Shown one piece after another: positions 18,040 to 49,054 of a stretch of DNA of 64,000 bases. Each line of letters starts with the position of its first letter. Within the stretch, counting starts at the first letter, position 1. Made by a program: the position numbers and the translations under genes. The notes under the pieces are model-generated. The model had not been told where the DNA came from. It was given only the letters and a program-made list of their open reading frames with translations, and searched no databases. This DNA comes from Pythium myriotylum (lineage: Eukaryota; Oomycota; Peronosporomycetes; Pythiales; Pythiaceae): positions 1,426,001 through 1,490,000 of the forward strand of contig JALJCQ010000003.1 in the NCBI GenBank assembly GCA_023091665.1, given 5' to 3'.

Positions 18040-20170
18040 ATGGCCGAGGCGCTGCGCTTCCAGGCGTGGCAGAGCGCGCCCGACGTGGGCTTCTGGCAGC
18101 GCCTCGCGGCGCTCAAACTCGACAAGTTCCAGCTCAGCGACTCGGTGCAGCGCGTCGTCGGCTTCTTCGCGCCCGGCCGCTCGCCCACGGTGCCCGCGCG
18201 CCTGGCGGTCGACGGCAGCGCCTTCGACGACGGCGACGGGGCCACGCCCGACCGCGCGCACTACGAGTGGCGGGCCCACGGCGAGCTGCGCAACACCAAC
18301 ACGCTCGAGGTGCGTACGAGCCGCGACGGCGCGCCCAGGCCTCTCGTCGCGCGCTCACGACTCTTTGGTTCCCTAGGACTTCAAGGGACTCGACAAACAG
18401 GCGCTCCTGCAAGCCGCAGGCGACCGCATGCTCGCGCTCATCTTCGACACGGAAGCGCAGTCGGTCGACGCACTCAACTCGTTCGTACTCATCACGTTCG
18501 CGGATCTCAAGAAACACTCGTTCCTCTACTGGTTCGGCTTCCCGGCGCTTGCGTTGCCTACGGCGGTGCTTGCGCGACCGCCTGTCGGCGTCGACACAGT
18601 GCTATCCGTTGCCGAGCAGACAGAGGCATTGCGCCAGCTCATGGCACTGCGGCCCGTGGAGCAGAGCAAGACCGGGTCTGCTCCCTCAGGGATGTTTCCA
18701 GCCTTCTTTGTGATCGAAAAGTCGTCAGAAAATGTACAAGTTCGCGACTTTGCAAGCTGGCGGAAGCAAGCGCCAGAAGAAAGCCCTCAAGACTGTCTCT
18801 TCGGTTTTGTTGACCCCTGCGCGCTCCCTAACAATCCTGGTTGGCCACTACGGAACTACCTAGCGATTCTAGCGGCTTTGCCTCAGTCCAAACTATCACG
18901 TGATCGCCCTGTCAAGCTGCTTTCATTTCGAGAGCACATTCGTCAGACTCAAAATGATCTTGAAGAAGTTGAATGGAAAGCCTCTCGCGTCTTCGAAGTG
19001 GAGACGGGTTCTGACTTCGTGCTCCGCCGTCCAAGTGACGCAAAGGTCGTCGGATGGGAAGTCAACGCCCGAGGAAAGATGGGCCCACGTATCATGGAGT
19101 TGGGGGCCATCTTAGATCCTGTCCGCCTCGCTGAACAGTCCGTTGATTTGAATCTCAAGCTAATGCTCTGGCGCCAGTTACCCGTGCTGCAACTCGACAC
19201 TCTTGCGCGCACGAAATGCCTCGTGCTGGGTGCTGGCACCCTCGGGTGTTTCACTGCTCGTAGTTTACTCTCCTGGGGATTTCGTCATATAACCCTAGTT
19301 GATAACTCAGTTGTCAGCCATTCAAATCCAGTTCGACAGCCACTCTTCGAGTTCAATGACGTCGGCAAACCAAAAGCAGAATGCGCAGCGAACGCGCTGA
19401 AGCGGATCTTCCCCCTCGTGATGTCCAGTGCCGTCCAGTTGTCGATTCCTATGGCTGGCCACGCGCTCAGCAGTGAGCACCTCATCAATGACGCGAAGAC
19501 GTCCATGGAAAAGTTAAATGAGCTCATCGACGCGCACGATGTTGTGTTTCTGGGCACAGATTCGCGTGAGAGCCGCTGGTTGCCAACGGTGATGTGTGCA
19601 GCCAAGAAGAAACTCCTCCTCAACTCGGCGCTAGGTTTCGATAGCTACCTTGTCATGCGCCATGGCATCGGCGCTTCTTCGCCTTCTTCGCTTGGTTGTT
19701 ACTTTTGCAATGATATCGTGAGCCCCCGTGATTCGCTTAAGGACCGCACGCTTGATCAAATGTGCACCGTCACTCGACCAGGGTTGGCCCCTCTCGCTGC
19801 TGCTACAGCGGTCGAGTTGCTCGTGGCGTTACTCCACTCTCCGGGAGGTATTGATACCTCTTCTGAGAAGCCGAGCGATTCGTCTGCACCGCTGAGCTAC
19901 GTCCCACACCAGCTTCGTGGTTTCTTGAATTCATTCACCACCATGATAGTGACCGGACAAGCATTCGACAAATGCATCGCGTGCAGTAAACCTGTTTTGG
20001 ACGCGTTCCACTCAGATGCGTTCGAGTTGCTTCAGAATGCTTGTAACTCGACCACGTACCTGGAAGAGCTCACGGGATTGAACACACTGACACAGGGGGC
20101 TGACGCCTTTTTGGACGAGCTCGATATCGATGCTGACGAGGAGAGTGACGAAGACTCCTTGTTGAACTGA
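18040..20170 (+). CDS. ATG7: Autophagy E1-like activating enzyme ATG7
   Basis: Activates the ubiquitin-like proteins ATG8 and ATG12 for conjugation in autophagosome formation. Two exons (18040-18309 and 18377-20170) are joined in phase 0 over a 67-base intron, giving 687 residues (human 703). The N-terminal domain opens FQAWQSAPDVGFWQRLAALKLDK, matching the family start. The nucleotide-binding loop is LVLGAGTLGC and the adenylation domain continues LVDNSVVSHSNPVRQPLF. The catalytic Cys553 lies in DQMCTVTRPGLAP. The C-terminus is acidic (DELDIDADEESDEDS), as in homologues that bind ATG8. The cathepsin gene upstream is divergent. Identification is secure. Confidence 0.96.
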
Positions 20171-20308: not shown

Positions 20309-23300
20309 ATGACAGATGATTGCTACTCTTATGGCAAGAGGGCGCCCTTGATTCTTTTATTCCTTGCGACCTTCTTCGTCTTTGCCAGGGCAACGCTTTC
20401 ACCAGACGATGCACAGAAATGGCGAGCCCAGAATGCCAACTTCGATTGGCAGCAGACAGATGGAAGCCAAGTTCGAATTGTAGGTCGCGGAGCTGTGGAC
20501 ATGGCAGGAAACTTGTACTTTGCAGGTTCAAAGGCGTACGCAAACGCGCAAGGCGACTTCATTGATGACGAGAATATGTTCATCGCCCGCATCAACGCAG
20601 ACGATACAATCGGATGGACCAAAGAGGTGGGTAGCGCAAGTCCCAGCGATAATACTCCACTGACTTCACCTTTGCAGATTGGAACAAATGAAACAGACGG
20701 GGCAAACTTTGTCGCTGTCATGAACGAGACCGTCGCGGGGGTCATGACACAATACCTTTATGTTGTCGGCTGGACGTGGGGGTTTATGGATGAAGCTGCA
20801 CACGCATTGAACAGTTTTGGGCGCTTTGGTGGACGTGATGTTGTTCTCTTAAAACTTCGATTGGAGGACGGGCGCAAGATCTGGACGAGGCAATTTGGAT
20901 CAACGGCGGACGACGTCGGGTACGGTGTCCAGCGAGACGGTGGCTTTGACAGGATTCTCCTCACCGGATCTACAGCAACGGACCAAGCAGACGCCGTTAT
21001 CGAGTTTGATGTCAGTGTTCAATATGAGCCGCGCCAGAAACCTTTCTCTCGCTACAAGGCGCAGTTGATGGATCCTCGAGCGCGACAAAATCCTCATACA
21101 CTCACTCAGTATCAGTTTGCCGCAAGTGTCAAACGTAACGGAGACATTGTGGACTTCGCAATGGATGGGGGCGTGACGCTCTCGTCGCGGCGGGTGCGAA
21201 TTGCTGAAAACAGCTCTTTGGTGGGTGAGTATGCCGTCGTGCTCAATCGCCAACCACTCGAAGACGTCATTGTTACTGCGACAATCGTGTGTTTGACCGA
21301 CCCTTCGAATTCCACGGCACGAGTTCAGCAAGTTGAATTTCTGGCCTCTTCAAACATAACCCGCAACCTCTTGTTTTCTCGAACCAATTGGAACCGCGAG
21401 CAACTGGTTCGTGTAGTTGCTGTTGACGATTGGACTGCCGAGGGCGTCCATTATGCTGTAATCACGCACGATACGAGCAGCAAAGACCCTGCATACAATG
21501 GGGACAACACGCCCTTTCTTTATGGGCGCAACATCACCTTCCAGATTGACGATAACGACGTCTCAGGAATCCAGCTCTCACGACGCCACGTGTTTGTCGC
21601 CGAGGGAGGCCTCAACGACAGTTACAGCGTCGTCTTGCGTTCAAGACCATGGTTCCCGGTGAATGTAAGCATAGTCCCACTCCATGCATCTCAGGCCTTT
21701 GCGACACCTGACGTATTGAGCTTTGAACCCGGAAACTGGAACATTTCGCAAATCGTTTCGGTCAGCGCCGTCGACGACAACGCATCCGAGAATGAGTTTG
21801 GAGGTCTTCATTTTGGCGGGCGCCTCTTACATTATAGTCACAGTAAAGACCGGCGGTATCTGACTAGACGCCCTCGGTGTTACGATGTCCCACGGTGCAG
21901 CCACGAGAATGCAAGCCTTTGTCTGACGGGAGAAATCAAAACCGAGACCATGCGGATTTGCGATCTGTCGGTGCCAACTTGCTATTCTCGACTAGGCAAT
22001 GGAGCGTGCATCGCGCAATTCGAGGGAGAGCAGATGCCGTTACAACGCTTTGGTTCTGGGGACGTTCTGAACTTCGTGCCCGAAGCGAATATGTCCGAGC
22101 TTACCTACGCTTCGCTTCAAGAGCTAATTGCAGACCAACTCCTTGATATCGAGCGGATCTCGGCGATGGCAAACATGAGTAGTATGTTTCCATTCCGGCA
22201 ACCTCCACCGAGACTTCGTGGCTTTATCCTAAGCTTTTTGGGACTATTGAACGTGCAGCAGGCAAGGCAAATGCACAAAGATTTTTTGCGAACCTTGCAA
22301 GCGATCTGCAGTGGCCTGGATCGGCTGTCTACACACCATTGGTTGACACAGCTTTGGCCAGAAGATTCCTTTCGTCGTGTGCTCAAAGCTACGCTCGCCA
22401 TGTTTGGAGGAAGCGTCAGTGAGCGACACTTGTGGGGCTGTGGGATGGCCTCATTCCGTCCAGGAAGCAGCGGTGTCAATATTAGTATCTGGGATAACGA
22501 TCCAGGTGTTACTCTTTCAAAGTCTCAGCTGCAGGTGTATGAAACGGGTTTTGAAAGACTTTCGGTCGCTCAATATTCGATCGTTCTTAACGCTCCTCCT
22601 ACAGTTGGCGAGCCTTCGCTCCAGTCTGCATTTTGCAGTGAGAAAAACTTTGACAGCTGTGGGTTGTGGAGTAACTTCTCTGCTCTTGCTTCATTGATTT
22701 ACAAGCCAGCAACTCAAAAACCTTTACCCAACGTCACCGTCTTGATTGTCGGTAACCCTCAAGTGTCTGTTTCACCATCATATGTCACATTCACGAGTGC
22801 AAACTGGTTTGTTCCGCAATGGATTACGGTCCGTGCAGTTAACGACGACCTTGCTGAGGAAGGCATTGCCAATGTCACCATCAATCATCGCGTCCAGAGC
22901 ACACTTTTCGGCTACGGCGACAATGGAACTGCGTTTTGGTTTCAGGGTGCGTCACCAACCATGGATAAACTCTTTCCTCAGTGGTGCAATGCGTCAGAAG
23001 CGCAGAGTGTTCCCTACAACTATATTCCCCGCGTCGTGCACTCGCCTCAGCACAGGCTTATAAACGTTCAAGTCAGAGATAACGATGTAGCAGGCGTCAT
23101 CGTGGCCCCCACGCAGCCGCTTGGGCATATCCGGACGCGCGAAGCTGATGATGTCGACGATAGTTGGGTCGGTGATTTGGTGAAATCGTACGCGTTCAGC
23201 GAGATTTCTCTCACCAAGTTACCGTCAGCATCCTCTTCCCTCGGTTTTGGGGCTGCTCTTCGAAATGTCTTGGTATTCGAAAGAGACGCTGTGACTTTCA

Positions 23301-26300
23301 TGAAATTCCACGTGCCACAGCGCCACGAGGGCGACACGTACCCCGGCTTCGCCTTTGCACGATTACGAGTGTTTGAGACTCCCTTCAAAGTGATCAACTC
23401 TTCGGGTTCCTCAAGCTCAGAATCATCTTCATCAACAGCCTTCGAGACCGAGTACAAGTTTCGAGTCACTGTTGTGGACAACGCGTGGACGACAATCAGT
23501 GTTGGCAATGGATCGGTGAATCCGATGCCTGTAAAATTTTTGGGCGGAAACCACTCAATTGAGGTGACTGCTCTACTGACAAAGCAGCGTTTTGTATCGA
23601 TCGATGTCACCCCGCTCATGACCCTCGTGCTTCCAACTCGCCTTCCGGTGGTGTCTCTCCGAATACTCGTTTTGGAGTCAACAAGCGCAGGCGACACCGG
23701 CGAAGCGAAGGTTTCCGTTGCAACTCAACTGTGCTCATCGCTATTTGAGAGAGCATTGCGGCCTACTCTATCGTGGGGCTACAGATTCCCGAATCGTCTG
23801 CTAAATGTTCCGACACGTCAGAGCTCCTCGCTTGCACCTTCATCTCTCGCGGTCGACGGTACCCGCGACCTTGCATCTTCTACACTCGAAGAGGATGGAG
23901 CGTGGTGGGAAGCCACATTCCCTGATCTCACCAGAATTGGATCGCTCGCCATCTTTGTACCCCCGGAAATGAATAGCGGCGACGTCGCTCAATCGCCAAC
24001 TGTGTTGATTGTGGTTGCAGCCCGTATAGATTTCGCCGAAAAAGCCATGAATGCGTCTGAAGCAAAGAGCGTCGGTTGTCCTGATGCGTGCCCTACTGTG
24101 TTGCAACTGCCATTACGGAAATCGCTAGTTATCTCGCAACTCAATGCAGGCGTTCGAACACTTCGCATATACCGACAAGGGTATGGAGCGCTACAACTGA
24201 CCCAAGTAGAGGCTTACGATTCGCATCTAGCGATCACTCCAGCTGCCAATGGGATTGGTCTTCGGTCGCGGTTGAAGATGGATTGGAACGGTCGCTTACG
24301 AAGCAACTCGTGGCGTCTTCTCCAGTCAGTTCGGCAATCTGACGATGAGAATTTAGCTCTTGGAATGCGCACGCAACAGAGCTCGACAGCACCACCACAA
24401 GCTGTCAGTTCCTTAGCTGTCGACGGTCAACAAGCCAGCTATTGGGATCCGCTACTGCGATTAGAGGGCTCAGTTGACGCAGCAGATATTCCAGCAAGCA
24501 CGCGCACAATCGTGGAGAAGGACCCCTGGTGGGAAGTTGATTTGGGTAGTGTAGTTCCGATCGCTAGTGTCGAGCTCTTCCCGTTCGTTGGAGAGCGAGG
24601 GCGTGGTTTTTGCGGGGAAGCGTCCGACGAGAGCTCGACAGTACCAATGTGGGCTGGGGATTTGGTTCATTACCACAAAACGGACATGTTGTTGCGACTT
24701 GAAGATCCTTTTCAACAATCTTTCTTGGTTGCGCTCTCGGATACCTCGCTCGACAGCGGAGGCAATGCGTCCGTGCTCAAGACGCTCGAGTTCTCATGCG
24801 CTGGAGGCACGAAATCTGTGTCGTGGTCTGATGTGTTCGCAAAAGCCCGATTCGTTAGAGTCCAACGCCCAGGCGAGAACGTAACTCTCATGCTGAACGA
24901 GGTTGTCATCAAGCGGTGGAATCCAGCGACAACACCTGAGCTTTTGTTAGTGGATCTACGAGGCTCCGGCGACACTCCAATCGCTCTCTCTTCCATTCAG
25001 CTGTTCCCTCCACTTGAAGACGGGTCGGAGACTTCGTTCGGCCTCCCAGTGGCATTCTCCGTGCACAGTGTCAGTTCGGAGCGCGCACCGTCTGGTGCTG
25101 GCTCTGCGATATCACTGCTCAGCGTCTCTTCCTCTGACTGTTACATTGCTGCAGCGGCCTCGTTCCGGGAGTGGATAGTGCTCAGACTTGACCAGCCTTC
25201 TCGAATTGGACACATCGAGATCTCATCAGATATTGCAGCATGTGGAGGTAACGTGTCTCCCGTGACAGCCTTTTCTGTATCCGCTCGTGGTATCGCGCTC
25301 GATGGGTTACGTTCTCCGTCCGTTCAAGCTCTGGTCAACGCTGCGCCGTCTCCTACTGAGTGCTCTCTGACGGCATTAGCAACATTGTTGAACCCATCAA
25401 TGGCTAGCAGTTGCTCCTCCTTTACCTGCAGTGACGGTTCTTGTCGTGGAGAGCTCCGTGCGACTGACAGTGTCATGTTCAGTGACTTCAACGATGTCAT
25501 TCTCTTCGGTGTGCCTTCGCTAGTTCCCACAATACGCCTGCCACTCTCTCAGCACGACGTCCGTGCGATGCTATTGCGAGATAACCCAGTGGCACTTTGG
25601 GGGTTTGAGACGGAGCAACCCACGATGGTCTCAACAACACGGATGGTGAACTCGTACAACTTGACGTCATTTTCTTCCTCGAAGACCTTACGTATCGATG
25701 ATGATTTGGAACAAACTTTCTTCTCAAATGCCGTCGCTGTGCAACCAACGATGAGTGCGTTCTCAATTGAGCTGTGGGTGCGTCTACGCGCGGCGCTTCC
25801 GAAGTCAGGATCACTCGTCACGCTCGCATCATCTTCGGAAGCCGTGCTAGCCGACATTAAGTGGGCACAGTCATCCCCGCGCGGAGCCTTCACCGTCTAC
25901 AGCCCGTCCTCTGGGTTATCTTGCTCTGTCAAACTGCCTGCAAACAGCTCTGCTTTCGATACCATCGGTCGCTGGTATCACGTTACTGCTTCGTACGAAC
26001 CAAGCAATGCAGGAATCTCTCTCTCAATTCGCCATCAAACAGCATCGTTCTCCCAGGAAATGGAAGAAATCGCTGCCACGGCTGTGTGCAATATGCCCCT
26101 TCTCAGCACTAAAGACAAAGCAATTCATCTAGGCGCTTTTTCGTTTGGGACAGGCTTCCTAGGCGATGTCGCTGCGGTCGCTTGGTATGTTGATGCACTG
26201 ACTGAACGCCAGTGGTTAGACCATTTTCATGACTTTCTTGTCCGCGGAAGCGGAGGGCCGACTCACAACTCGTACGCTTTAAGACTGAACTCGAAACCTT

Positions 26301-29300
26301 CGACAGTTGTGACTATCGAGATGGACGCTGAATTGGCTTGTTACTACTTTTCGCTTTGCAACGTCACCGTGATTCCGAGGACTTTGCTCTTCGTCCCTGA
26401 GAACTGGAATATCTCTCAGCATGTGAGGGTCATTGCCACGGACGATCAGCTGTACGAGGGTTTGCACCATACACAGATCGCTCATGAAGTATCCAGTCTA
26501 CCAACCTACGAGGTTCAGTCCATCGCGCTCACGGAAGACCTTCAAGGCGTCGATGCATACAAGTGGATATCATATAAACGTGCAGTAAACGTGTTCGATC
26601 GCGCTGCTGTCTATCGAGCCGCGTCAAGCAACAGTATCTTTACAAATCAACAGATTTTGGAGGAGATGCACGCAAATTGGTCAACTCAAAGGGTGGAAAC
26701 GTCGGTCATCGAACGACACCCGTACACGTCGTCGTTGCGTGTTGATAGTATCGATGTCGAGATTGAAGACGCCACCGTGCCCGGTATCCAGTTCTCCACA
26801 AACTCGCTCGTTGTGTCAGAGAGTGGCCGTGGCAATGACTACCAGATCCTGTTGCTCTCAGAGCCAACTAATGAAGTGTTTGTAGTATTAGATACGCAAA
26901 GCGACTGCTATCGCGAGTGCTACATGGATCCTGTCTGCCCATCATCGCAAAACTTTGGCGCAGACTTTTCGTGCGGTGGCGGCTCGGCAGGCACCAAGCT
27001 CTGTAACGTGTCGGTTTCCCCTGAGGTGCTACTTTTCACTCCCAAGAACTGGAGTTTTCCACAAACAGTCCGAGTTGTTGCAGTCGACGACCGATTGGAT
27101 GAAGCGGACGTACACCTCTCGATCATTAAAGCACGATCTGAGTCCTTAGATCCTGTGTACAACGCACTGTATCTGCCTGATATCGTTGTTGCCGTCGAAG
27201 ATAACGATGACTCTGCGATCGCGTACTCAACTTTGGAGGTTACTATGGCAGAGATAAATTCGAAAGGAACGAATTATTCGCTCGCTCTCCTCACCGAGCC
27301 ATGGGCTAATGTCACGATTGCAATGAGCAATGAAATAGATGGAAGTTGCTATCGACGGTGCGGGTACCCGTTTGACGACAAGGATTGCGGGCTTCCACGT
27401 CAGCAATCAGTTTCCAGTGTGCGATTAGCCTCGAAGTCCCCCCGAGAGATCCATGAGATCTCTTTACGATTACCAAGGCCTCGGGTGATGGAAGTGCAGC
27501 GCATTGTGACTTACGCAGACCACGTGGACCACATATATAGTGTTCAGGTAACAGGAGGGTTTGCACCTGAAGTCCAAATGATCGAGTTTGCATTCAACAG
27601 TGCATTCAAGGCCCGATTCAAATCGGCGACGGCTATTGCCGCCGCGGGGACTTACCTTCGAACATTTAAGGTCGGAATCAGGGGTAAGACTGTGGCGACA
27701 TCGAGTATTGATGGTTTCGCAATGGCTGCACAAGTCGAGACTGCAATTAACGGACTTCTACTGGGACGAGCGACTAAGGATAACGTTGTGCGGGTATCGA
27801 GAGAGCTATTGTATGACCAAGCTGTATTACGATGGCGAGTTACATTCCTGAGGTTCGTCGCCGAAGATCTAGCCTTCCCCACGCTTACGGCGACAGTTGA
27901 CACTCCTTTTGAAGGGAGCCTCATAGTGAAGCGTGTTCAGACGATGGCACCTCCTACCGGGTCATTACGAATCCAATATGGGAAGAATGAAGGGACGTCA
28001 ACAGCATCGTTCGCGTTAGTCGCTGATATAAGTGACATTGAGGCTCAGTTGCGAGACATTGATACAGTCTTTACAGCGCTGGTGTCTCGTAGTACTGCTA
28101 GCACTTCGTCCCCGTCGCCCGTCTATGGCGTTATCTTCTCAGTGACTTTTACGACTGTCGAATCGTACGAGACGTTGGTAGCATCCACACGAGATCTGAC
28201 CGCTGCGGCCAATGCATTGACACCGGATGTATTGGCGTTGGTGGTAGAGGCACGACCTCCTGTCCAAATTGGAGGGTTTTTCATTGTCAAGTACGCGAGC
28301 CCATATGTTAACACATCGGTTAACGCGACCGTGGGTCCTCTCCAAACCGGTCCAATAGCTTGGAACACGTCTTCGGAAATCATGAAAGCATCGTTGGCAA
28401 ATCTTCACGGCTTAGGAGCCGTAGAAGTCTCTCGCCAGCAGCTATCGCCTGAAGGGGCCATGGCATGGACCGTAGCCTTCGTCAACAACAACGGAAACCT
28501 GCCAATGCTGGAGCCACTGTCGCTTAACTTGACCGGCAAAGGCGTGACTGTGCAAGCAGTGTCTATTGTGGAAGGGGTTTCGCTTGGTGGCTTTTTCACT
28601 GTGGAAATGGGTGGGCCAATGATAAAGACAAATCCTACCACCCAGCGGGTTTACAACATCGTTATTGGAAAGCGTAATGCCACGAATATTCCCTTCAATA
28701 TTGCGCCCGACGCGCTCGCACAGAAGCTCGTGTCGTTGCAAGTAACAGAATTGATGCGTGTGACCAGGGACGGCATCGACTGTGATGTTTTTGATGTTTG
28801 CGAAGGCTACATCTGGACCATCAATTACATCAACAGTCCGGGGAACCTTCCTCCGATCCAGGTTTACAGCAGCAACGAAGCTATCACAGATAATGGTGCA
28901 GTATTGTCTGCACGGACAGTCGCAAACGGAACTTATCTTAGCGGGTTCTTTTCGCTCAAATTGGAGTTGTTCGACGCGGAGACGAACGTCACCCACCGAG
29001 CAAACACTTGGAACTTGCCGGTGAATGTGAGCGCTCCTGGGATGGACCAGGCTCTTGAGGCCATCTACTTCGTCCGTTCGAACCGAGAAGCCGAATACGA
29101 CCCTGAAACAAGGCTCAGTCGGGGTATGCTGTTTGACAAGGGTGTGCGCGTGTATCGAGAGGGGCCATATTTGGACGGCGGGTACACTTGGCGACTGGAT
29201 TGGGCGATCGAAGATTACAAGCGCTTCCAGGATCTACGCATTACTATCAACACGTCGCTGGTCACGCAGTTGATGGAGCCGCTCTCAGTACCATCAGAAC

Positions 29301-32300
29301 TAGATCTGACTGGGACACCTCGCTGCAGTGCAATTCCCATGGCTCGTTTTGAGCTCGACGACACTGACCCATTTAAACTCCGTGGTTTCTGCGTTTACGA
29401 TTTAGAGAATGTTACCACGCAGGAACGGTACTTGTGCAATTACACGGTAGTGAATCCTTCGATCGTCTTCACATCAAAGGATTGGTGCACACAGAAGCGT
29501 GTACAGCTCTCACCTGTGAACGATTTCATCGACGAGGCGACAATAGAGAATGCTAACATCACATTCTCCAATGTCACACACACAGTGTTTAGTGACGACC
29601 TCATCTATAGCGCTTTACCACTGGAGAGGGTTCTCATCGCTGTCGAGAGTGATGACGTGGCTCGCGTTGTCGTATCGGAATCGCATCTGGACGTTAGCGA
29701 AGATGGCTCGGTCGTCGCATACTATGAGCTTGTTCTGACGACTGAGCCACTATACGATGTGAACATTGTCGTCTTACCCTGGCTCGACAGTACTGACACC
29801 AAATGCTATCGATTCGGACTATGTAATGTCACGCTTGACGTCAACACGTACGTGTTTACACCTCGAAACTGGAATATTCCTCAACGAGTCGTGGTCAAGG
29901 CGACCGATGATGATCTCGATGAGTACGACAATCACGAGACTGGTATATCACACGTCTCGTACAGTGACGATCTGAAGTACCACCAACTACCAGCAATCCC
30001 GAAGATCCACGTGACAGTTGCAGACAATGATGACTCGGGATTCTTCGTGAATAAGGCATCGGTCAACGTGACCGAAGGTGGAGAAACGGGCACATATGAG
30101 GTGGTCCTAGGTTCAGAGCCCTTCGCTAAGGTCACTGTCAGCATTCAAAACGTGGGGACAAAAGGAAACTATGCAACCTCTACTCCAACAAAGCTTGTTT
30201 TCACCTGGCTGAACTGGAGTGTGCCACAAACTGTCACTGTTTCAGCCGTCGACGACGCCACTCAAGACCCTATCGACTCGTCCAGTTTTATGGCTCACTC
30301 CCTCTCCACAAATGATTTGATTTATGCTAAACTCAAGAACTTGGGTAGTGTTCGAGTATGGATCCGCGACAATGACGTCTCGGGTATAGAGTTATCGGTG
30401 CTGACGATGTCTGTCGAAGAGCGGGCTCTCCCCTTCAAGTACGCTGCGCGACTTACTTCCGAGCCTTGGTACCCTGTCACGATCATCCCAAATGGAATGA
30501 ATGATTGCTACGTTCGTGCTGCGACACAAGAGCGAGTTTGCAACGTCAGTATGATCACAACGGCGGTGTACTTTGGTGCAAGTAATTGGAGTCAGTGGCA
30601 ATCCGTGGACTTTTTGGCATTTGACGATTCGTTAGATGAAGCGCCCATCCACAAAGCTATGATCACCCACGCATCTATCAGCAAAGACCCTATGTACGTG
30701 TCTGTTGACTACGTGGACAAGCGACTAATGCTGGCAATCACCGACAATGATATCTCGTTTGTGAGTATCTCGCTCGCAGTTGCATCCAATACATCACGGT
30801 CTCGCCTCCACGTCGCTGAGGGTGGTTTCAATGACTCGTACTATGTCGTCTTGAAGACAGAGCCGTATGAGGATGTCGTCGTGACTGTGTTTCCACGTGT
30901 GGAGCGCATCGTCAGCATCGACAGCGCGATACCTCCGTTTGATTCTGCTCAGGTCGGCGCTGCGTACGGCTCAAAGTCGTCAATCCCAGCAGGTAGCATG
31001 ATTCTCATATTTACAGCGCTAGACTGGTTCTTGCCTCGATCGGTGACCGTCTTTGGTATTGACGACGGAATTCCTGAAGATCCGACGCAGTTCTCTTCGA
31101 TTGGCCATAGCGTTTACAGTGCTGATTCAAAGTACAATATCTTGAACGCATCTCTCGGTATCGTGGATGTTCCTGTCATCATCAGCGACCGTGAAGCTGT
31201 GCCTCCACCACTCCCTCAATCTTCCATTTTTGACGTAACTGGAACGCGGATCCTCGTGACGTTTGACTCGACTGTATACCACGCTGCGACGATGGTGATT
31301 AAAGCAGCGCCGACAGGCTCTGCCTACGCGCCCCGATTAGCGAGCTTCGCGTGTTCGATGGTGTTTTCGTCGTTGCTGGCACCGCTTGGTTCTGGTGCGA
31401 CTTGCACCTGGCGATCCGACCTAAGACAGCTGATTGTCACTCTCGGTATCGGTGCGACAATCTTACCCAACGACGTACTTTTGCTGTACGAGTGTTCAAG
31501 TTTTGTGAAACAAGTTTGCCAATCCCCGAATGTGCTGAGAGCTCGCCACACGAGCCGTTCATACACACAAGCAACTATCACACTTCGCGTAGACCCCACT
31601 GCAGTCACAAAGCCAAAGATCGTTTTGAGTATTCCTGAGCAAGTTGGAACATGCGGTACGTGGCGTGCAGATGCGTCGCTGTCCACAGGATCTGCTGGAC
31701 GGCCCTTCAAAGAACTACGATGGATGGCGCTGCCTCGAAGTGCAATCTCGTCATTGAGCGTCTCAGCGGATGTCTGGTCAGAAACAAGCAAGACGCTGTT
31801 CGTGGCAATGTCCCCACTTTGTCAGAAGTATGGAACAGCCACAGCTTTCGTCAAGGCAGACCTGTCAAACCAACTCTCTTCGTTCATCACATCGCTCGAT
31901 CAATTGCGAACGGCATGTTACTTGCGGGCTCTCTCAGTCGCTGCATCGACAAGCAGCGCACTCCGAGTCGACGTCAATAGCTCCCTGCTGCTATCAGATT
32001 CGACGTATGTTTTCGGCTTGTCGCTGACCAACGCGTTTGAGCAACAAACAATTGTCGTCCAGAGCGTTTACGTTGGCAAACAGCCGAGTCCCGTCGTGTT
32101 TGCCGTGGGGGACAGTTCGCTTCAGGTCTCCCGTGGCGAATCAACGCAGCCAATCACACTCCAGGCCGACGCAACTCTGAGTTGTCCACTGTTGACCGGC
32201 GCTCAAGTCGCCTTTAAATGGTTTGTGACTGCTGCGGACTCCGACGGAGGCGGTTCACCTGTTGCTTTGAATCTCAATTCTACCAATTTGGCGAAAGACC

Positions 32301-35300
32301 CACGCGTGTTCCGTGTTCCTCGGTCGCAACTGGTTGCTGGGAAGACGTACCGTTTCCGAGTCGACGCGTCCGTTCCTCAGGCTGCGAGTGGGAGCGCATA
32401 TTTTACCGTACGTGTCTCCAGCAGTCCGCTCACTGCCGTGATTCTTGGAGGGAACAGGACGGTCGGAGAGAAAGACTCACTGGTGCTTAACGGATCATTA
32501 TCGAATGACCCGGATCTAGCTCCAGAACCATTATTGTACACATGGCGGTGTGAGGATTGGACAAACGAAACCATGGCAGCACTTGGTCTCATCCCGTGCT
32601 TGAATTCATCAACAGCTTCTCTCTCGCCATTAGTGCTGCCGTCAGCGTCACTGCTTCCCCTACTCACGGTGGACCCTTTCACGTTCGCTCCACAGCGTTC
32701 ATTACGCTTCTACTTGACTGTGAGCAAGATCACGCCAATGAAGACGATGAGGACTGCATTCACGCAGACCCGTGTGTGGACGACGGTGGGAAGCTTGCCC
32801 GAGGTTCTCATACAAGCTTCTGCTTCCAAGCTCAATCCAAGCAGTAGACTAACACTAAACAGCGTGGTCAAGTCGACTTATCCGTACTCTGTACGTTGGG
32901 TGGAGGATGAAGGTGATCTGGGCCTCCCTCCTGAATCGAGCAATATCACTACGCACAATGCGTTTGCAATGAACCTCACGAGTCCAAACAACGCAGTCCG
33001 CCGAAATGTACTGACTCCTGGTCAGCATTACACCTTGCGACTCATTGCAACCGACATCAACGGGAACCGCGGTTTTGGGCTTGTAAGCTTCACTGTGAAC
33101 GCTCCGCCGTCGCCAGGACGCTTCCAGATCTCCCCGCGCGAAGGTTTCGCCATGATTGACACGTTTTCTCTCGAATGCATGCAATGGACAGACGACGCGG
33201 AGGATTTGCCCCTGAAGTACTCCTTTGGCGTTCTCCCAACATCGATATTTGACACCCTGGGGATGAATGTGACACTTGTGCGCCAGCGCATGCTTCCTCT
33301 CACTGGCGAGCAGCTCCTCCCGGCTGGACGGGTGACAATGCTCCCGCCAGACGTACAAGATAGCGCAGACATGACAGTAGTTGCCTTCATCGTCGACTCG
33401 ATGGGTGGCATTGCCATGGCTTCGGACTCGATCACTGTGCGGATGCCGGCATCAGCGACTTCGCAGCCAGTTGCCTTTGTCTCCACCTTACTGTCAGCCC
33501 AGAATGCGAGCGACGGAGCGACCAAGTCCAAGTACCTCTTTTCAGCTGCCCTCGTACTTCAGCGAGCTTTAAGCGGTGCCAGCTCTCTGACTGACTGCCC
33601 TGGGACTGGCTCTACGTCAGGGATCTGCTCTGGACGCGGAACGTGCGACTCGGCCACGGTTGTTTGCGTTTGCGATGCTGGATATATGGGCCAGTCATGC
33701 GAGTTCACAGTTGCTGATATCCGTGAAATCAACGGCGCGATCTTCTCGTCCCTCGCCAGTTCTTCTGTTCAAGCCGTTGAACCGTCTTCCTCAGGGCTCT
33801 CTCAGCAGGCTCTCGTTGTCGACACAGTCACGCAGTCATCCTCAGCCGCGTTTGACGAGGACGGGCTAGGTCAGGTGACTTCGCTGAGTAGCGAGATCGC
33901 ACAGAACGCTTTCGCCCTCCAAGACTCGGCAGGGTTCCTCGATTCAACTGGTGCGACACTGCTCAGCTCGCTCTCTGTAGTTTTATCTGTGGTATCGACT
34001 GCCTCAGCGTCAGATAGCCAATCGATTGCTGCTTCAGCCTCTACAACCAAGCGGAATCGCCGTCTCGCGGAGGAAGACAATTCGTCTGGATCTTTTTCTG
34101 CGAGTTCGTGCAAGGTCGAAACTCCTACAGCGAAGAAAACCTTTCGCAGGCTCATTGCAACACTGCAGTCCGTTGCTGGCATTGCGAGCCAGGACCTCCT
34201 TCCAGGAGAGTCCCCAGTTCAGCTGTCTTCAGGACAGATTACGACCACTGTTGGTGCTGGTAGGAGTCTCAAGAGTCCGAGTTCGGCACTGTCCGTGAGT
34301 CTGACAAACGTCGCGATCGCTTGTCTCGGGACGAACACCGACTCCGACCTTTTGATCAACACATTTCAGCTGAAAACGCCGCCTCACCCGACCTGTTCGC
34401 TTAAGGAAGCGATCACAATCTCAGCCGCGACGGTAATGACTATCATCGACAAGGCGAGTCTGTCAGCCGCACTCGTAGGCAAAGCAAATGGCGAGCTCGC
34501 TCCTTTACAACTCACGAGTGACAGTCTGTGCGTTGCGCAGGCGGCTTCGAGGAATGCTGCAGCGGGCAAAGCCACGCGGCGTCTTGACGTGGAAGCAGTT
34601 TGGCAACCTCTGGTAGCTCTGTCGATCCCCCACGCTCGCGCGCTAACTGCGGTGGAGCAGCGCAACTTTACCACTGGCTGCAGAGCATGGAATTCGTCAA
34701 GTGAAAAGTGGGAATCGGATGTCTGCTTCAAGGATGACACGACAAGCTCCCTGACAGTGACCGTATGTTACTGCGGGGAGATCCGCGCGGCGCCGGGACT
34801 CGAGGTTTTAGTGACGTTGGAGGAACGCCTTGACTTCTTCGCACTCTCTCGCGATCTCTATCGCAACGATGACCCATCGGTCGTTGGGTCAGTTGCGCTC
34901 GCCATCCTAGTCGGTATATTTGTTTGCGGCAGTAAATACGGGCAGATGAAGGATTTGATGGATGACAAGCGAGAAAAAGATAAAACTATCGCTAGCTTGA
35001 ATCGGTCGAAGTGGAGTGAACTCCAAGAACGGACTCAAGCCGGGCCGGATGGTGGCTTCGAAGACTTCGCAACTTTTATGGCCAAACGCGAGAAGCAGAA
35101 TGAGGCGAATGCTGTCACAGCTGCTACGTCGGATTCACATCTCACGACGATAGCATCTCGCCAAGATGCTCAAAACGTACTCAACTGCCACGTGTCCATC
35201 CCAGACGAGACTCGAGTTTTGTTCAGTTCCTGTTCGACGCTCAGGGTCAAATACGAAACTCTCTTGTGGATCCTACGGGGCTGCAACGTTGTTCTCGCAA

Positions 35301-38300
35301 CAATTGGCGTTGTATCAGCCTTTGTTGGCGTTGACTTTTATTTAGTTCTTGGCAACAGCACATCGTCCAGCCTCGTGCTATTCCTCTACGGCAAGCCGAT
35401 CGGTATTGTGCTCTTGTGCTTCGGTGGACTACTCATCACGATGGGTCTATGGGGAGTCTTCGTCGCTCGAGGGGCCAACTCGTCACCACGCATCGTCTCG
35501 TCCTTCTACACGACGTTGCTTTGGGTCTGCCTGCTCGGCGAGCTCTTCTTCGTCTGCTTAGCCTTCCGATACGTGAACGACCTCGAATCGCTGCCGTTTG
35601 CAGGAGTAGAGCCCCTCCGGTCAGTATGGAGCAGGTTATCACCACAGCTCCAGGATGAAATCCAGACTTCATACGGGTGTTGCGGATTCTCTTCCATCTT
35701 AGAGGCAGTCGACGGATGCCCTGAAGAAGCACTGGACGCGTCGCCGCCTCTTACTTGTGTTAGAGCTATTGAAGCTCATGCCCTCGGGTTATTCTCCACG
35801 TCAATTGTGTACCTCCAGGGGACGTTCTTAGTCCAGATTGCAGCCCTATTGACCATTCGCTCACTGCAGACTTGGCGTCGGCTGAGGTTGCAAGAATTGA
35901 TCGAAGACTCAGACTCAAATGCATTACCATTCCGCTCAATTCTCGATGTCATGGTCTACTGCTCCGTCCCAACTCTACTGCAGAGTCTACTCAGCTTGAT
36001 GGCACTTGTGTTCTTTATTGGGGTCGACTCTCTTGCCCAGCTCCACGTGTTAAGTAACGCGTTGACTGCTGGTCTACTAGGAATCGAAATCGGCGTAATT
36101 CACATTGTTATCGCGGTCGTATACGCGGCCATGCTGCTTCAGGGACTACTTGCCTTCCGAAGACGTGATGTTCGTCGTCTCCAATCTTTCACAGCAATGT
36201 CGATCGGAGGCTTCCTTGTCTCAGTTGCGCTTTTCATCTTCGTCGACCAGTTCCACAACCACTGGCTCTTGGATCCTGCGATTGTCGACTTTATCCATAC
36301 CAAGTTCGTTCAGCTGCCACGGCAGACGCTTGTGGAGGTGGAGACATCTCTCGAGTGTTGTGGCTTCTCCGAGCACAGCGAAGGAGCTTGCGTGACCTCA
36401 CCTACCGACAACCAGCCAATAGCAACGTGCCGAAACCTCGTGCTAGGGGCGCTCAATAGGGAACTCGAGACTCTTCGCCACCGCGCACTGGTTTTCTCTG
36501 TAATTCATGTGTTCGTACTCGTTATCGCTGCGACCACGAGCCTAAGACTCAGGCGATTTGCTGTGAAGCCACAGATTCGGCCCGACGCTCCCCCCGAGAA
36601 TCCTTCGGTCATCCTCGTATCATTCACCCATGCATTTGTGCACCAGAGCAGCCTGCTTGTGCTCCTCGTGATATCGACAACGGCATTTGTCTTCGGGCTC
36701 GTTGTCATCGGTGCTGGTGTGGACGCCACGTATCAACTGAACGTGCTTCACTTGTCGGCCTTACTGCGTGTCTTTGACCGCCACGCCGCCGCCTACCTGC
36801 TGTCGGCTGGTATGGCGATCACGCTTTTCGGTGCTCTTGGGGTCAGTGTTGCGTTATCAATCTCGCACCGGTTTCATCGTCACCTGTTGTGGCTTTTCGC
36901 TGGAGTCAGCGTGGGGATCTTCGTCGCTGCGTTTGGGTTGTCGGGCTTTGCATACCGCTTTGCTCACGTCCCGTTAAGCGATGAGGCTCTGGAAGAACGA
37001 CTCGAATCGTTTTGGATCGCGGTGCCGCCGGCCACGACGCGCGTATTTCTTCAGAATGCGTTATCGTGCTGTGGCTACGAGAAAATCGAGCGTTTGAACG
37101 GATCGGTCGTTTACACAGATCCAGGCGAACTCTCGGCGTGGCATCTCGCCAGCGAAACCGTGACGACTGGTTCATACTCGACCATCGCGCCAACACCGGG
37201 CCTGCGACGTCAACTCAGTGTGAACCTTCTGACTCCGCGGCGACTGACCCAGATTGTGTGCCCAGAGCTCGCCACGGAGGCCTGTGCACCAAAGCTCAAG
37301 GGGTATGTGCGTCGAGTGGCGTCACGCGCCTTCCAGCTGGCGGTCGCGCTGCTCGTGTGCGACTGCAGTGTACTTGTCGCCGTCGCCGGTCTGCTGTGGA
37401 AGCCATCCCTGGAGAACAGAAAAGAATCGTGGAGAGTGAGTACCGCGCGTATCACTTTCTTCGCACTCGCGCTGGCGCTTCTCTTTGTGGCGCTTGCGTC
37501 CCTCTTCCTCGGACTGGATATCGTCACACACTGGTCGCTCTTCAGCTCAACGGCACTTCAACTTGTGTTCCCTAGATCAATAGGCGTCGCCTTCTTCGTG
37601 TATGCGACTCTCTCCAGTGCCATCAACGTTTACGCGATCCAAGGCATCGCCCGTGGGGTCGTCCACCGCGTCTTCCTCCAGTCTACCGCTAGACTGTTCC
37701 TTATCCATTGCGGCTGGCTCTGTGTCGGCCTGACAGGCTATGTGTCTCGCTTCGGTGGTTCTCAATGGCTTACCCACTTACGCTCCTTCCTCGACGGTCA
37801 GTGGGACACTTTGACACCGCTCACTCAACACCGCATTTCGCTCGAGTTCCAGTGCTGCGGATTCAACGACCCTGTCCTCGTCAAAGGCCGTGGCATCGTG
37901 TACGACCGTCCTGCAGTCGGCTATTCTTGCTCTCTAGCTGCCGCACGCGGTTGTCGCCACGTACTGGAAACGCAAATCGGTGGTTCATTCGGCTGGATTT
38001 TCACGTTCGTGTTGACTGTGACCTTAGCCGACACGCTCGCGCTCGCGTGTGGCGTCGCCGTGCTGCGCCACTTGCAGAAGGCGAAGCCTCACGATTGGTT
38101 CGTGATTGAGAGTCGCTTGCGGTTCGCCGCCGGTAAATACCGCAGCGAGCTGCGCAGGACGCACTTACTTCTATCGCTAGTTTCACACTTTGACCGCAAG
38201 CTCACGCGAGCACAGCGCCTAGCGAGTGTGCTGTGTGGGCTCGTGACAACCTTCGCCGTGTATGCGGCGTGGTTTGCCCACGAAGGCTGCCACCGCCACG

Positions 38301-41300
38301 CGCTCAAGTCGTGTCAGCAACCAGGCGCGTGGGGGTTCTTAGGTATGGGAATCGTGTACGGTGGTTTCGTTGGCTTCGCAGCCCAGCTCGTAGTGCGCGG
38401 GCTTTTTGAAGCCGTTCGCAATCGTAGCGATGACGAAACAATCGAGGTCGCCGTCACGCGCCAGCGCAAGGAGAAAGCGCTGCTCTTTCGTGGCATGTTT
38501 GGCAGTCGCAACCGAAAGCCCCTCATCGATCCACGCGTTTCAGACAAAGCGAGCGTAGCTGTACTCTCGGCGTCGTCACTGCTCGAGAGCCCGTCTCACG
38601 CGACCACAGAAGAGCGATGGTACTCGTGGCTCTCAAGCTTCTTGCACTCACTCTTTTGCGTCTCGGGCACTGTGCTCTTCCTCTTTGGCTGTGGCCTCGC
38701 CACGTTCATGGGGCTTGTACTGTTGGGCCTAAACGACTCCCTCTACGGCGTCAAGTTCGATCAGGGGCCGAAGGAGGCGCTGGTCTTGGGATTGCTGATC
38801 GCTGCAACGGCGCTGCTCGCTTGGCTCGCAATCGACGTGAAGCAGCGCAGACCAAATGGTGGACGAAGCGCGGCCGTGTTTGTTGCAGTGGCGCTTGCCT
38901 CGGCTCTCCTCCTCGGTGGACTCTGTCTCGGCTTGTTCATGGCCAGCCAAACCCTAGACGAGGACCCAAGCAACTGGACGATTCGGAACACCAACTTCAG
39001 CGTGCCGCAGCGCCTGCAGAGCGCCTGGGCAGGCGACGTCACCGGCTTTTTCCGCCGCCGCGTGCAGCAAGAGCTCCAGTGCTGCGGCTTCCGCGACGGT
39101 ACCGACGCCGCCTTCCGCCCCTGCCCACAAGGCACGACAGTTAACGTCCAGTACGAGGCCGTTCGCGTTGACGGTCGCGTAGTAGTGGAATCGAAGGACG
39201 AGGTTCGGGACCTTGTAGGCTGCTACCCCAAGATGCTCACACAGTTCCATATAGTACTGGACCAGGTCGCGTACGTCGTGATCGCCACTGGGGTCGCGCT
39301 TCTGCTGCTCGCGCTCAGCGCAATCTTCCTCGCACACGACGTGAGCACCGCTAAGGACGCCAAACTCAAATTGCGCGTCGCGACGACATCAGCATCGTCG
39401 AGCGACGTGCGGGAGACATTCGAGAAAGTCGTGGGGCTCAAGATCGCAGCGCCAGCGCGCGGGAAGATCTTATCGAAGATGCTGTCCGCCAGCCTCGAGA
39501 ACGTCGCGCCACACGTGGTCACCGAGTTGTCGTCAGCCTCGCTCACTAGCCACCATCACCCGCCGTCGGCAGAAGCAGCGTCTTCGTCGACTTTTAAGCT
39601 TCCGAACGGTCAAGTCGTGTCTTCATCCCTCGCGCGCAACAGGTGGGATGTCGCGGCCGCCGTCGCTGCCGAGAATGTACCCTACCCGGCGTGGATCGTG
39701 CGTGTCGTTTTCGCACTCTGGAGTGTCTGGATGGCTGCGATGTGTTACGTGGTGGTGGTGAATTCGCTTGAGTTGGGGGTGACAACGGCCTGGCGCTTAG
39801 TCGCTGCGTGGGCTGTCGGTGTGATCTTCCATCTCGCGGTCGTCGAGCCCCTCGTTGTCTTCTTTCGGATTGTGCTCTCGACGCTGGGCCAGTGGTGGAG
39901 GACGACAGCGGTGGCACGACTGCTGCGCTACGGCCGTGACGCACTACGCATTCGCCCCTCCGCAGAGGCTGAAGCAGCGCGGTACTACGCCTCGCTCAGT
40001 CTCTACGAACGCATCCGCTTTAACGCGGCGGTTCGCATTCAGCGCCGCCTTGCTACTCGACTCGCCCGCCGACGGTTCTTGCAGACCGTGCGCGAGCGTC
40101 GAGAGCAGGCGCACCGGCTCCTGGTTGCGCACCGTCGACTTGTTCTGAAAAAGTCGATCGAAGGGTTTTCGGCCGAAGAGATCGAGGCTTTCCGACTGGT
40201 TTTCCAGGACGCTGACACCGCTCGGCTCGGGCTTGTCTCCTACACGGTGATCTCCCAGTCCATCTACCAGCTCGGTGTCCACGTTGACGCGGCACTCGTG
40301 CGCGAGTTCCTTGTGGAGCTCGACCCCGCGTACGCTGACCTTGTTGACTTCGAGCACTTTCTTTACGGCATGCATCGCGTACGTGTTCACCACCAAGAAG
40401 AGCAGGCCGCGATCGAGGCGGCCAAGGCGATGACGGCCGACGAAAGAGACGCCGCGGCGCTCGCGAAGGAGGAGTTTGTAAGCTCGTCGTCACGATTTGG
40501 TCCTGCTGCAGACCCACAGTCGCGAGTACTCGTCAAGCGGCAGAACCTCCTGCGAGAGCTGCGCGAGAAGCGCGAATCGCTTTCCTACAGACTCATGAGT
40601 AAGGTGAGCAAGCTTCCGCCACTCCTACAACGTGGTCGCTCGGCTCAAGGCGTGACGTCCGGCATCGAGACTGAGAGTCAGCGTCAAGCGACAGCAAGTG
40701 ACCTTGTGGAGGCTGCGGCAGTCGAAGACGCCAACCCGACAGGGTCCTATGTGCTGCTGCAGAACCGCAAGCTCTCCCCAAAGAAGAGAGCGCTGGAGAT
40801 GATGCTCAAGAAGAAGAGTCGCGAGGAGAAGGAAAAGGTCCGCTCACCACCAGGCGATTCGACTGCGCACTCTCCGCGCAAGATGGTGCCAAGCCTGAGG
40901 CTGCCTGGCTCTCCGCGCGCACGCACCCGACCAAAGGAGGACGATACGTCCACGGCAGACGTCCCACGAATTCCGACAATTGTCGAATCGGACGAGACGG
41001 AGCCTCCGTCGCCGCAGAAGACCGGTGGCAAGACGGCCTCAAACGACAACACTGAGGCCGCCGGGAGTCTGGCAGCGCATGACGAAGAGTCGAAACCGTT
41101 CGGCACGTTCATGCTGCTGGCCAAGCAAACGGCCAACGCGGGGAAGCACAAAGTGATGGCGAAGGTGTTGCACCAGCGCGGCCAGTCGGCGCCGTCGGCG
41201 GACGCGGCTGGAAGCGACGACGAGGACGCCGCCGCCTCGCGGCCGCCGACCGCCGAGCGCGCCACGAGCGCCGCCAAGAGCAGTCTCGAGAAGGCGCTCA

Positions 41301-41323: not shown

Positions 41324-41438
41324 AGTTGCTCTTTGTCCGTATCTACCCGTAACTAACGCCTGTTAAATACGTACGAGCCCTGCCCGTCCATCCTTCCCGT
41401 GCGTGCTGCGTGTCTGAGCTCGGAGCTGCTCAGTGGCC

Positions 41439-43617
41439 ATGGAGCGCCAGCCCGCGCCCGACGCGCCGCGCCGCGCCTGCGTGCCGCTCGCGCACAAGCG
41501 CGTGCCCACCGAGACGCGCGCGCCCGCCGACCGCGCCGGGCTCGTCTGCGCCGCGCTCGTGGCGCCGCACGTGGACGTGGCGGCGCTGCGCGCGCATCTG
41601 CTCGCGCTGCCCGAGAGCCACTGGCAGGAGCCCTACAACCGCGCGCACAACGTCTTCTTCCAGCGGCCCTTCCACGACAAGCTCGGCGTCAACAACATCA
41701 TGTGTCTCTTCTCCGACACGCAGCTCGAGAACGTCTACGTGCTGCCCTTCTACGACGCGTACCGCCACTTTCTCGAGCCCATCTTCGAGACGGCGAACGT
41801 GCACCCGTCGCAGGTCGTGCGCTGCCTCTTCGCGCGCATGCCTGGCGAGACGCTCATCCCGCCGCACCACGACAACGGCCCGTGGGTGAGCAAGACCCAC
41901 CGCGTCCACGTGCCCATCGTCACGTTCGCGGATGTCGAGTTCAAGAGCGGCCCCGTCGAGGAGACCATGACGCGCTTCGCCTTCAACGAAGGCACGATCG
42001 TCGAGCTCAACAACGCGGCAAAGCACAGCGTGTGGAACCCAGGCAAGCGCCATCGCATCCACCTCATCTTCGACTACGTGGAGGATGTGCAGCGCGCGCG
42101 AATCACTCGCCATTACCTCACGCCGGGCCAGGTCTGTCGCCAAGTCCGAGGCCGCGTCGAGCTCTTTGCTACCGACGCTGTCGACAAGAAGGAACGCGCA
42201 GAGGCGCAGCGCAAGGCGGCCAAGCTACACGGAGAAGTCGAGTCGCTGCTAAAGACCCACGTCGATGCAGACGCCGCGTCTGCGTTCGCGAAGGCGTGCC
42301 GCCACTACTTCATTGAGCAGATCAGCGCCAAGGACTTTGTAAAGACCATCCGTCGCATGCTGCGAGGCCAAAGTGACGAGACGCTCGCTAACCAGATCTG
42401 GCCCAAGCTTGTGGACATGTTCGGTCTGGTAGACAAGTACGCGAAACGCGAGCTGCTCGACGCGCAGCGAACTGATGTGTACGCGCCCAACTGGGTCATC
42501 ATCGGAGCGCAGAAGAGTGGAACAACGTCGCTGTATGAGTACCTCAGCCAGCACCCGCAGCTGCTCAAGGGGCGGCGTCGCGAGCCCCACTTCTTTGACT
42601 GGAATTGGGAGGCTGCTCTGAAGCTGAAGCTACCTGACAATGAGGATGCCGTGTACAAGAAAATCCTGAAGGAATTCGCTGCTGCTCGGCGAGAAGGAGG
42701 CAATCACGGCGAGCCCCAGGACGACGAGGAGAACGCGGATGAGAAGCGAGCAGACTTGATGGATAACAGCCTGGACGATATGCGGTAAGTGACCAAACTC
42801 TAGGTATCTATCGCATCTGCTTTTGCTAACGGACTGGGTAGAGCAAAATACCTGGCCTCTCTTCAGTGCGAGAACGTGGCGTCGGTGCTGCGCTCGCCCA
42901 AGCAGATCGGAGAGTCCACGCCCAGCTACTTGCTCTACGGCGAGCGAGTCGCTCTTCGGATGCGACAGGTGCGTGCGCCACTTTGTGCTCGTCTGCTCAC
43001 TACTAACTCCTTTGATGTGAGATCAGCTCTACCCGAACATGAAGCTGATCGTGATGCTGCGGGACCCTGTCAAGCGCGCGTTCTCCCACTACCAGATGAC
43101 TGCGGACCCGAACGGTACGCCCGCGCAGCTCAAGATGCGCGAGCCTGTGCGCGGCAAGTCGTTCGAGCAAGTCGTGGAGGAGGACCTGGCGCTGCTGGCG
43201 CAGGCCGACGTGTCGTCGGCAGTCTTGGACAGCGTCTCGAGCAGCGCCGTGGACGCGTTCCAGCGGTACGCGGACGCGCTCTCGCAGTCACACGGCGCGC
43301 ACTCGTACGTCGGCCGCGGGCTCTACGCGCTGCAGTTGGCGCTCTGGATGCGCGTCTTCCCGCGCGAGCAGATCCTCGTGGTGGATCTCGACGACCTCAA
43401 GACGGCCGAGGGCACGCGGCGCGTGGCGAACGAGGCGTTCGACTTTTTGGACGTGGAGCCGTTCGACGTGCGCGACACGGAGCGCAAGAACACGCGCGCG
43501 TACGGCGAGATGGACGCGGCCACGGCGCAGCGCCTGCGCGCCTTCTACGCGCCCTTCAACGAGCAGCTCTTTGAGCTGCTGGGCCGCCGCTTCGCGTGGG
43601 GAGATGGCTACATTTGA
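41439..43617 (+). CDS. Fusion of Asp/Asn beta-hydroxylase-like dioxygenase and sulfotransferase
   Basis: Three exons (41439-42784, 42842-42968, 43027-43617), introns of 57 and 58 nt, 687 residues. The N-terminal domain (about 60-230) has IPPHHDNGPWVSKTHRVHVP and AKHSVWNPGKRHRIHLIFD, the His-containing iron-binding strands of the aspartyl/asparaginyl beta-hydroxylase family (Fe(II)/2-oxoglutarate). A charged helical spacer leads to a PAPS-dependent sulfotransferase. It has the 5'-phosphosulfate loop GAQKSGTTSLYEYL near residue 355, then REPHFFDW, then the 3'-phosphate motif RDPVKRAFSHY. The second and third exons fall inside the sulfotransferase and restore its frame exactly, so the join is real. 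No signal peptide or anchor is evident. Substrates unknown. AATAAA at 43627-43632. Confidence 0.87.
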
Positions 43618-48888: not shown

Positions 48889-49054
48889 CTCGACGTTGCG
48901 GGACCGCGAGGGTGGGAGTTCGGGCGCAGCAGTTGTGTGGACCACACCGGCAACTTCTGATTGGTGGAGAGCGGGCGAGCGACGGGCATTGGTCGAAATC
49001 GACCGCCAGCATGTTTCCGTGGGTAAAGGGGGCGGGCCAGTGAGATCTGTCGCC
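48889..49054. promoter_or_regulatory. Divergent promoter, SLC25 carrier / UPF2
   Basis: Only 166 bases separate the two start codons, so the promoters must overlap. A CCAAT box on the minus strand (ATTGG at 48959-48963 and 48990-48994 on the plus strand) appears twice. Shared control is inference. Confidence 0.4.

Follow-up and report, generated by a model that had tools for sequence, protein, structure and literature searches.

Concerning receptors in which a long adhesive stalk leads into the membrane, three described systems provide the background. Human polycystin-1 contains REJ, both the TM1-TM2 and the TM3-TM4 loops of polycystin-1 are cytosolic, and the animal protein joins polycystin-2 through its channel half. 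Tetraspanins usually stand alone as proteins some 200-350 aa long, with both termini in the cytosol; they are thought to organise receptors through loose lateral contacts that are difficult to pin down, and some, such as CD9, function in gamete fusion. Adhesion GPCRs (BAI2, GPR110, latrophilins) place a GAIN fold immediately ahead of the first helix. Within the stramenopiles, the Ectocarpus protein Esi0130_0068 (1,427 aa) is described, in the part of the source consulted, as combining REJ and GPS with 6-7 predicted helices (PMC4700764).

In the current study, the window, a stretch of 64,000 nucleotides from the Pythium myriotylum genome assembly (55 contigs, 58.7 Mb), was found to hold a coding frame that encodes 7,004 aa before its stop codon, and translation revealed no internal stop. 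Its start is the first ATG past the upstream stop, with a hydrophobic stretch downstream. The initial annotation had placed an ectodomain, membrane helices and a tail in a single continuous frame, and this was borne out. An ordinary ATG7-like frame (18428-20170) precedes it on the plus strand; frames downstream of the receptor start at 41399 or later and include an ordinary UPF2-like MIF4G frame at 48830-53008. Aspartyl/asparaginyl beta-hydroxylases modify EGF domains in animals, and the frame adjoining the 3' end of the receptor (41433-42788, plus strand) contains a domain of this hydroxylase type (9e-9) and also matches a sulfotransferase weakly, beside a receptor that itself has an EGF domain. 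The features of the extracellular part are as follows.

20309..41323 (+): whole coding frame (open frame; homologue identity)
20309..20407 (+): signal-peptide-like start, residues 1-33 (hydrophobic stretch spanning 12-34)
20879..20974 (+): weak SBBP-like beta-propeller repeat (Pfam SBBP E 0.031, below cut-off)
21191..31228 (+): repeat zone with discoidin and LamG domains interspersed (at least 6 repeats of about 120 residues, mostly DND-ending)
21191-21562, 26822-27214, 29660-30037, 30035-30382, 30380-30757, 30755-31228 (+): repeats of about 120 residues
24377..24589 (+): discoidin-type (F5/8 C, galactose-binding-like) domain (F5_F8_type_C_2 E 3e-7; F5_F8_type_C 5.2e-4)
25751..26206 (+): LamG/concanavalin-A-like domain (Laminin_G_3 E 6.6e-6, just below cut-off)
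32204..33508 (+): REJ domain (PF02010 E 1e-54)
33617..33700 (+): EGF-like domain (Pfam EGF_2)
33626..34828 (+): GAIN fold, residues 4440-4840, helical part then beta sandwich (structural match of model)
34679..34774 (+): GPS relic (C4791, C4806, C4820 and C4822 kept; H-L-T/S cleavage triad missing)

Residues 35 to 4850 carry 69 N-glycosylation motifs and 70 cysteines. The discoidin-like, REJ and EGF-like regions proposed from the sequence alone were recovered by Pfam, with REJ also matched in the genome search (contig C3:1458204-1459508, E 1.8e-53), and the LamG-like region was found at a borderline score. The proposed Calx-beta-like repeats were not confirmed as such: Pfam gave no match of any kind in the six repeats of about 120 residues, and the PDB search returned no Calx-beta chain. 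The GAIN-like region was confirmed by the structural match of the predicted model (both structure models had a pTM of 0.51), and a GAIN fold ahead of TM1, like REJ, is a feature of polycystin-1. The claim of a GPS-like region held for its four cysteines but not for the self-cleavage triad of polycystin-1, which is present in 0 of 38 proteins of the window family (the window protein and its 37 oomycete homologues, see below) versus 13 of 16 rows of a paralogue family. In the genome, Pfam GPS matches a single place.

Beyond the GAIN fold, the chain was resolved into a five-helix core, five tetraspanin modules and a tail:

34877..34933 (+): polycystin-type TM1 (hydropathy; GPS-TM1 profile matches)
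35231..35878 (+): tetraspanin module 1 (CCG at residue 5124; Pfam; fold; positional tree group)
35921..36568 (+): tetraspanin module 2 (CCG at 5350; Pfam; positional tree group)
36611..37423 (+): tetraspanin module 3 (CCG at 5587; Pfam; positional tree group)
37424..38083 (+): tetraspanin module 4 (CCG at 5849; Pfam; fold; positional tree group)
38126..38443 (+): polycystin-type TM2-TM3 (profile matches; H...S.....D...(F/L)(T/S)R.QR motif)
38621..39343 (+): tetraspanin module 5 (CCG at 6258; Pfam; positional tree group)
39680..39898 (+): polycystin-type TM4-TM5 (profile matches to the paralogue and P0053; alone without PDB match)
40037..40087 (+): IQ-like basic stretch, unconfirmed (by eye)
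40142..40381 (+): EF-hand pair with degenerate-looking loops (profile match to EF-hand proteins)

The tetraspanin array and the more than twenty membrane helices of the initial annotation are both upheld, with about 25 helices including those of five tetraspanins. Pfam PF00335 scored 113 bits against a cut-off of 32.1 over five stretches, every module has four helices and a CCG motif with two further loop cysteines, and tetraspanin folds were found by structure search in the predicted models for modules 1 and 4 (with model 2, Foldseek returned nothing at E<=0.001, CD53 being top at 0.013). The genome-level list of tetraspanin matches names four of the five modules, module 4 not being among them. 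At least five CCG motifs occur in 26 of 29 proteins, with fewer in P0026, P0027 and P0028. In a tree of the modules of nine of the 38 proteins, Aphanomyces included, the modules cluster by position and not by species, forming five positional groups (bootstrap/SH-aLRT 99-100/94-100). As each position groups by itself, the array is older than the divergence between Aphanomyces and the other oomycetes sampled, and a recent origin inside Pythium myriotylum was rejected, since the five groups take in Aphanomyces. The deep branches of this tree are weak, with long branches meeting, and stand-alone tetraspanins did not come together as one group in it. Elsewhere in the genome, a 436-codon frame on another contig (locus L004, C13:3760742-3761449, plus strand) has two partial tetraspanin matches and is possibly a second, smaller tandem tetraspanin.

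Hydropathy analysis left five non-tetraspanin helices, near residues 4857, 5971, 6010, 6466 and 6505, and their nature was deduced by way of a paralogue. The only other REJ frame found by the genome search lies on contig C26; its end comprises REJ (1.3e-24, part fetched), an intact GPS (3.3e-8), five helices recognised by eye and a tail, with no tetraspanin match, and tetraspanin is likewise missing from the precomputed domains of P0039-P0052, members of the paralogue family. In the C26 copy an EGF-like stretch is visible by eye, and its tail looks zinc-finger-like (TRAF6 match at E 0.1). This paralogue closes a single open frame 32,736 codons long (C26:1099950-1198160, minus strand, loci L013 and L023-L032), which runs from a signal-peptide-like start (by eye) through a 322-residue array and a second repeat block to REJ, GPS and the five helices. 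A ten-residue marker recurs 75 times in the array, at a spacing of exactly 322 residues in 74 of 74 intervals, and across 70 kb of the array a single frame among six is open (0 stops versus 220-799). If translated, it would be, to our knowledge, among the largest known proteins (cf. titin).

Window-family profiles, from which rows with more than half gap were excluded, matched the C26 paralogue collinearly and ranked it first against a background of 200 shuffles of the paralogue plus its reverse (GPS-TM1 2.5e-7, TM2-3 2.4e-7, TM4-5 1.8e-7); a more extended GAIN slice, sharing part of its span with the GPS slice, reached 1.2e-10 as a sum, its best stretch being 1.1e-5 with high composition bias. 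Paralogue-family profiles in turn matched P0053, an Adineta polycystin-1-type protein that was itself found through its likeness to the paralogue family, at 9e-19, 9.4e-10 and 3.9e-10 respectively (200 shuffles, among which the paralogue TM2-3 profile scored one at 0.0011). P0053 combines GPS, PLAT, a polycystin domain and a channel, with no REJ in the domain search, and the matches are collinear round its PLAT (1838-1945), which lies between TM1 and TM2. Compared directly with P0053, the window-family GPS-TM1 profile is strong (1.8e-8), while TM2-3 (E 0.026, best shuffle 0.12) and TM4-5 (E 0.0023, best shuffle 0.093) are weak, both ranking first and in place. As these direct matches are weak, it is mainly the paralogue, together with the collinear order, that ties TM2-TM5 to polycystin-1. 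Against the PDB, a TM2-3 profile of seven family rows and the paralogue placed human polycystin-1 at the top (E 0.0016 over 95 of 106 positions), the rows right after the polycystins being TALE repeats from 0.002, which are sums without a passing stretch. The TM4-5 profile gave 0 PDB matches, and phmmer with residues 5930-6577 gave a single chance match at 1.1. Polycystin-1 is absent among the best 50 structure-search rows for the models, from which neither its presence nor its absence follows.

These comparisons indicate that the five leftover helices correspond to the TM1-TM5 core of polycystin-1, in order, with strong support via the paralogue and weaker support directly. The first four tetraspanins are accordingly assigned, from sequence, to the predicted TM1-TM2 loop, at the place of PLAT in animal polycystin-1, and the fifth to the TM3-TM4 loop. 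It had been claimed that the stalk leads into tetraspanins, and the REJ-EGF-GAIN stalk is indeed continuous with the array; the tetraspanins, however, are nested within a polycystin-type core instead of replacing it, and a stalk leading into tetraspanins alone was rejected because TM1-TM5 match the C26 paralogue and, through it, P0053. PLAT was absent from slices covering residues 4440-7004 in Pfam searches to E 10 (a genome-wide PLAT search gave 0 matches, as did its controls), and the Pfam slices revealed no 7TM family after the GPS.

The tail had been described as IQ/EF-hand-like, of which the EF-hand part stands, with degenerate-looking loops, and the IQ part has no Pfam match. With a profile of residues 6585-6705, the best 60 of 280 rows were troponin C, calmodulin, centrin and similar proteins, with single-stretch matches to calcium-dependent kinase (1e-5), calmodulin (5.1e-5) and centrin (5.5e-5) and a match to troponin C at 2.4e-6 as a sum. 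The paired helix-loop-helix homologous to calmodulin lobes is thus present; by eye its loops look incomplete, and a Pfam EF-hand match is absent. Over the final 665 residues Pfam found no family, so that neither a polycystin domain nor a channel half was found, and no hydropathy segment lies beyond residue 6523, channel-type TM6-TM11 being missing. On this evidence the window family has lost the triad for cleavage at the GPS, together with PLAT and the channel half.

The same order of domains had been named as worth seeking in other oomycetes, and was found there. A search with residues 4000-6700 returned 28 proteins among 766 scored candidates, and one from an Aphanomyces protein returned 13 rows out of 1,295 scored candidates, adding nine proteins to the set; all have REJ and Tetraspanin as precomputed domains, and PLAT or PKD_channel is listed for 0 of 37 homologues. 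Named matches were from Globisporangium, Pythium, Lagenidium, Phytophthora, Nothophytophthora and Aphanomyces in the first search and from Aphanomyces, Achlya, Saprolegnia and Thraustotheca in the second. No non-oomycete was among them, within a scope set by candidates that share words with the query and fall in a length window. Over aligned positions the window protein is 44-50% identical to P0002-P0028 and 33% to P0029. Twelve blocks (REJ, GAIN, GPS, TM1, modules 1-4, TM2-3, module 5, TM4-5, EF) are complete and collinear in 32 of the 38 proteins, the window protein counted, of which 29 helped to build the block profiles and so match by construction, the other nine including 6 complete ones. 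P0026 and P0027 have all blocks in broken order (P. ramorum, the same species, also has a complete model, P0017), blocks are missing in P0028, P0033 and P0038, and P0035 shows both defects. An artefact in which assembly or annotation error fused adjacent genes is therefore rejected as extremely improbable, with nothing found that speaks for it: the order recurs across many species in proteins that join REJ to tetraspanins, and the modules group by position rather than by species. The homologues are already public under titles such as 'PKD/REJ-like domain-containing protein'.

Taken together, the parts are already known, but the build lacks three tested polycystin-1 features and exceeds a tetraspanin. 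Like polycystin-1 (human 6a70_B, Adineta P0053), the window protein has GPS, TM1, TM2-TM3 and TM4-TM5 in the same order; unlike it, four tetraspanins occupy the PLAT site and a fifth lies between TM3 and TM4, the channel half and GPS triad are lacking and the tail is EF-hand-like. It shares REJ, GPS and the TM1-TM5 core with the oomycete REJ-GPS five-helix proteins (the C26 paralogue and P0039-P0052), which are without tetraspanins and mostly keep the triad. Each module resembles tetraspanins (CD9, CD53, CD81, Tspan15, uroplakin, peripherin) in its four helices, CCG and four loop cysteines, whereas five modules per chain, embedded in another membrane protein and conserved as such, are unlike these independent small proteins. 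The GAIN fold sits as in adhesion GPCRs, the membrane core being different and without a 7TM Pfam match. Esi0130_0068, compared by description and not by sequence, similarly joins REJ and GPS to several helices but is far shorter, and the main text of its report nowhere mentions 'tetraspanin' (PMC4700764). That no described family has this order, as initially annotated, agrees with the parts of the literature searched on REJ, GAIN, polycystin, tetraspanin and oomycetes, in which no account of it was found.

The anatomy of the window protein is firm, and from it we infer a function. The reading that we favour, at a little short of an even chance, is a polycystin-1-derived receptor with nested tetraspanins, which would stay uncleaved, serve adhesion or mechanical reception and have a tetraspanin microdomain built in. 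As both polycystin-1 loops and the tetraspanin ends are cytosolic, the insertions would preserve the core topology. The ectodomain would bind a ligand on matrix, wall or partner cell, and because the GAIN domain lacks a cleavage triad, pull or ligand binding would be relayed through the uncleaved stalk to TM1-TM5, not by shedding. The five tetraspanins would lie against the core, forming a fixed, covalently joined microdomain that recruits partners at a set ratio, for example polycystin-2-type channels or adhesion proteins, with the EF-hand-like tail as a cytosolic contact. A narrower form, possible but on the unlikely side, is that the tetraspanins form a fixed belt round the core and that this belt, rather than any channel or G protein, receives the force sent by the non-cleavable stalk.

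The REJ domain itself would also fit a mating or cell-recognition receptor akin to the sperm REJ proteins, with species-specific binding by the ectodomain and tetraspanins aiding contact or fusion, and the Ectocarpus REJ-GPS protein is, in the part of its report consulted, specific to male gametes and shows signs of positive selection (PMC4700764). We consider this rather unlikely, as the identity of the window protein to P0002-P0028 and the fixed order would favour a constant role over fast-changing recognition. Polycystin-2-type channels are possible receptor partners, as the genome holds 16 PKD_channel matches, two sharing one frame. This would suit a zoospore or flagellar surface sensor in which contact triggers calcium entry through such channels, as would the two sporangia-induced polycystin-2 genes of P. 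infestans described in the portion of PMC5322657 consulted. No downy-mildew genera are among the named homologue matches, which would fit a zoospore role if the gene was lost with zoospores, but which could also stem from the search length window, unnamed rows or the database; given also that the channel half was not found, such a sensor is unlikely, if a serious candidate. Improbable is an organiser of vesicles or trafficking, whose tetraspanins would direct the giant ectodomain to vesicles or to a domain of the cell surface without signalling: the stand-alone tetraspanin PsTET3 is a vesicle marker in P. sojae (PMC10423219, as consulted in part), yet the consulted part of a P. infestans vesicle study reports no tetraspanins found (PMC12457093), and a conserved GAIN fold and five-helix core seem unneeded for plain sorting.

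In this large, conserved oomycete surface protein, which was not found discussed in the parts of the literature searched, a GAIN receptor core has five tetraspanins covalently attached to it, their order being conserved, and a single chain lets the number and placement of tetraspanins round a receptor be tested structurally. The arrangement suggests that TM1-TM5 of polycystin-1 is an old, separable unit which accepts other domains in its loops and, if the tetraspanins do act as a belt, would represent an additional output mode for GAIN receptors.
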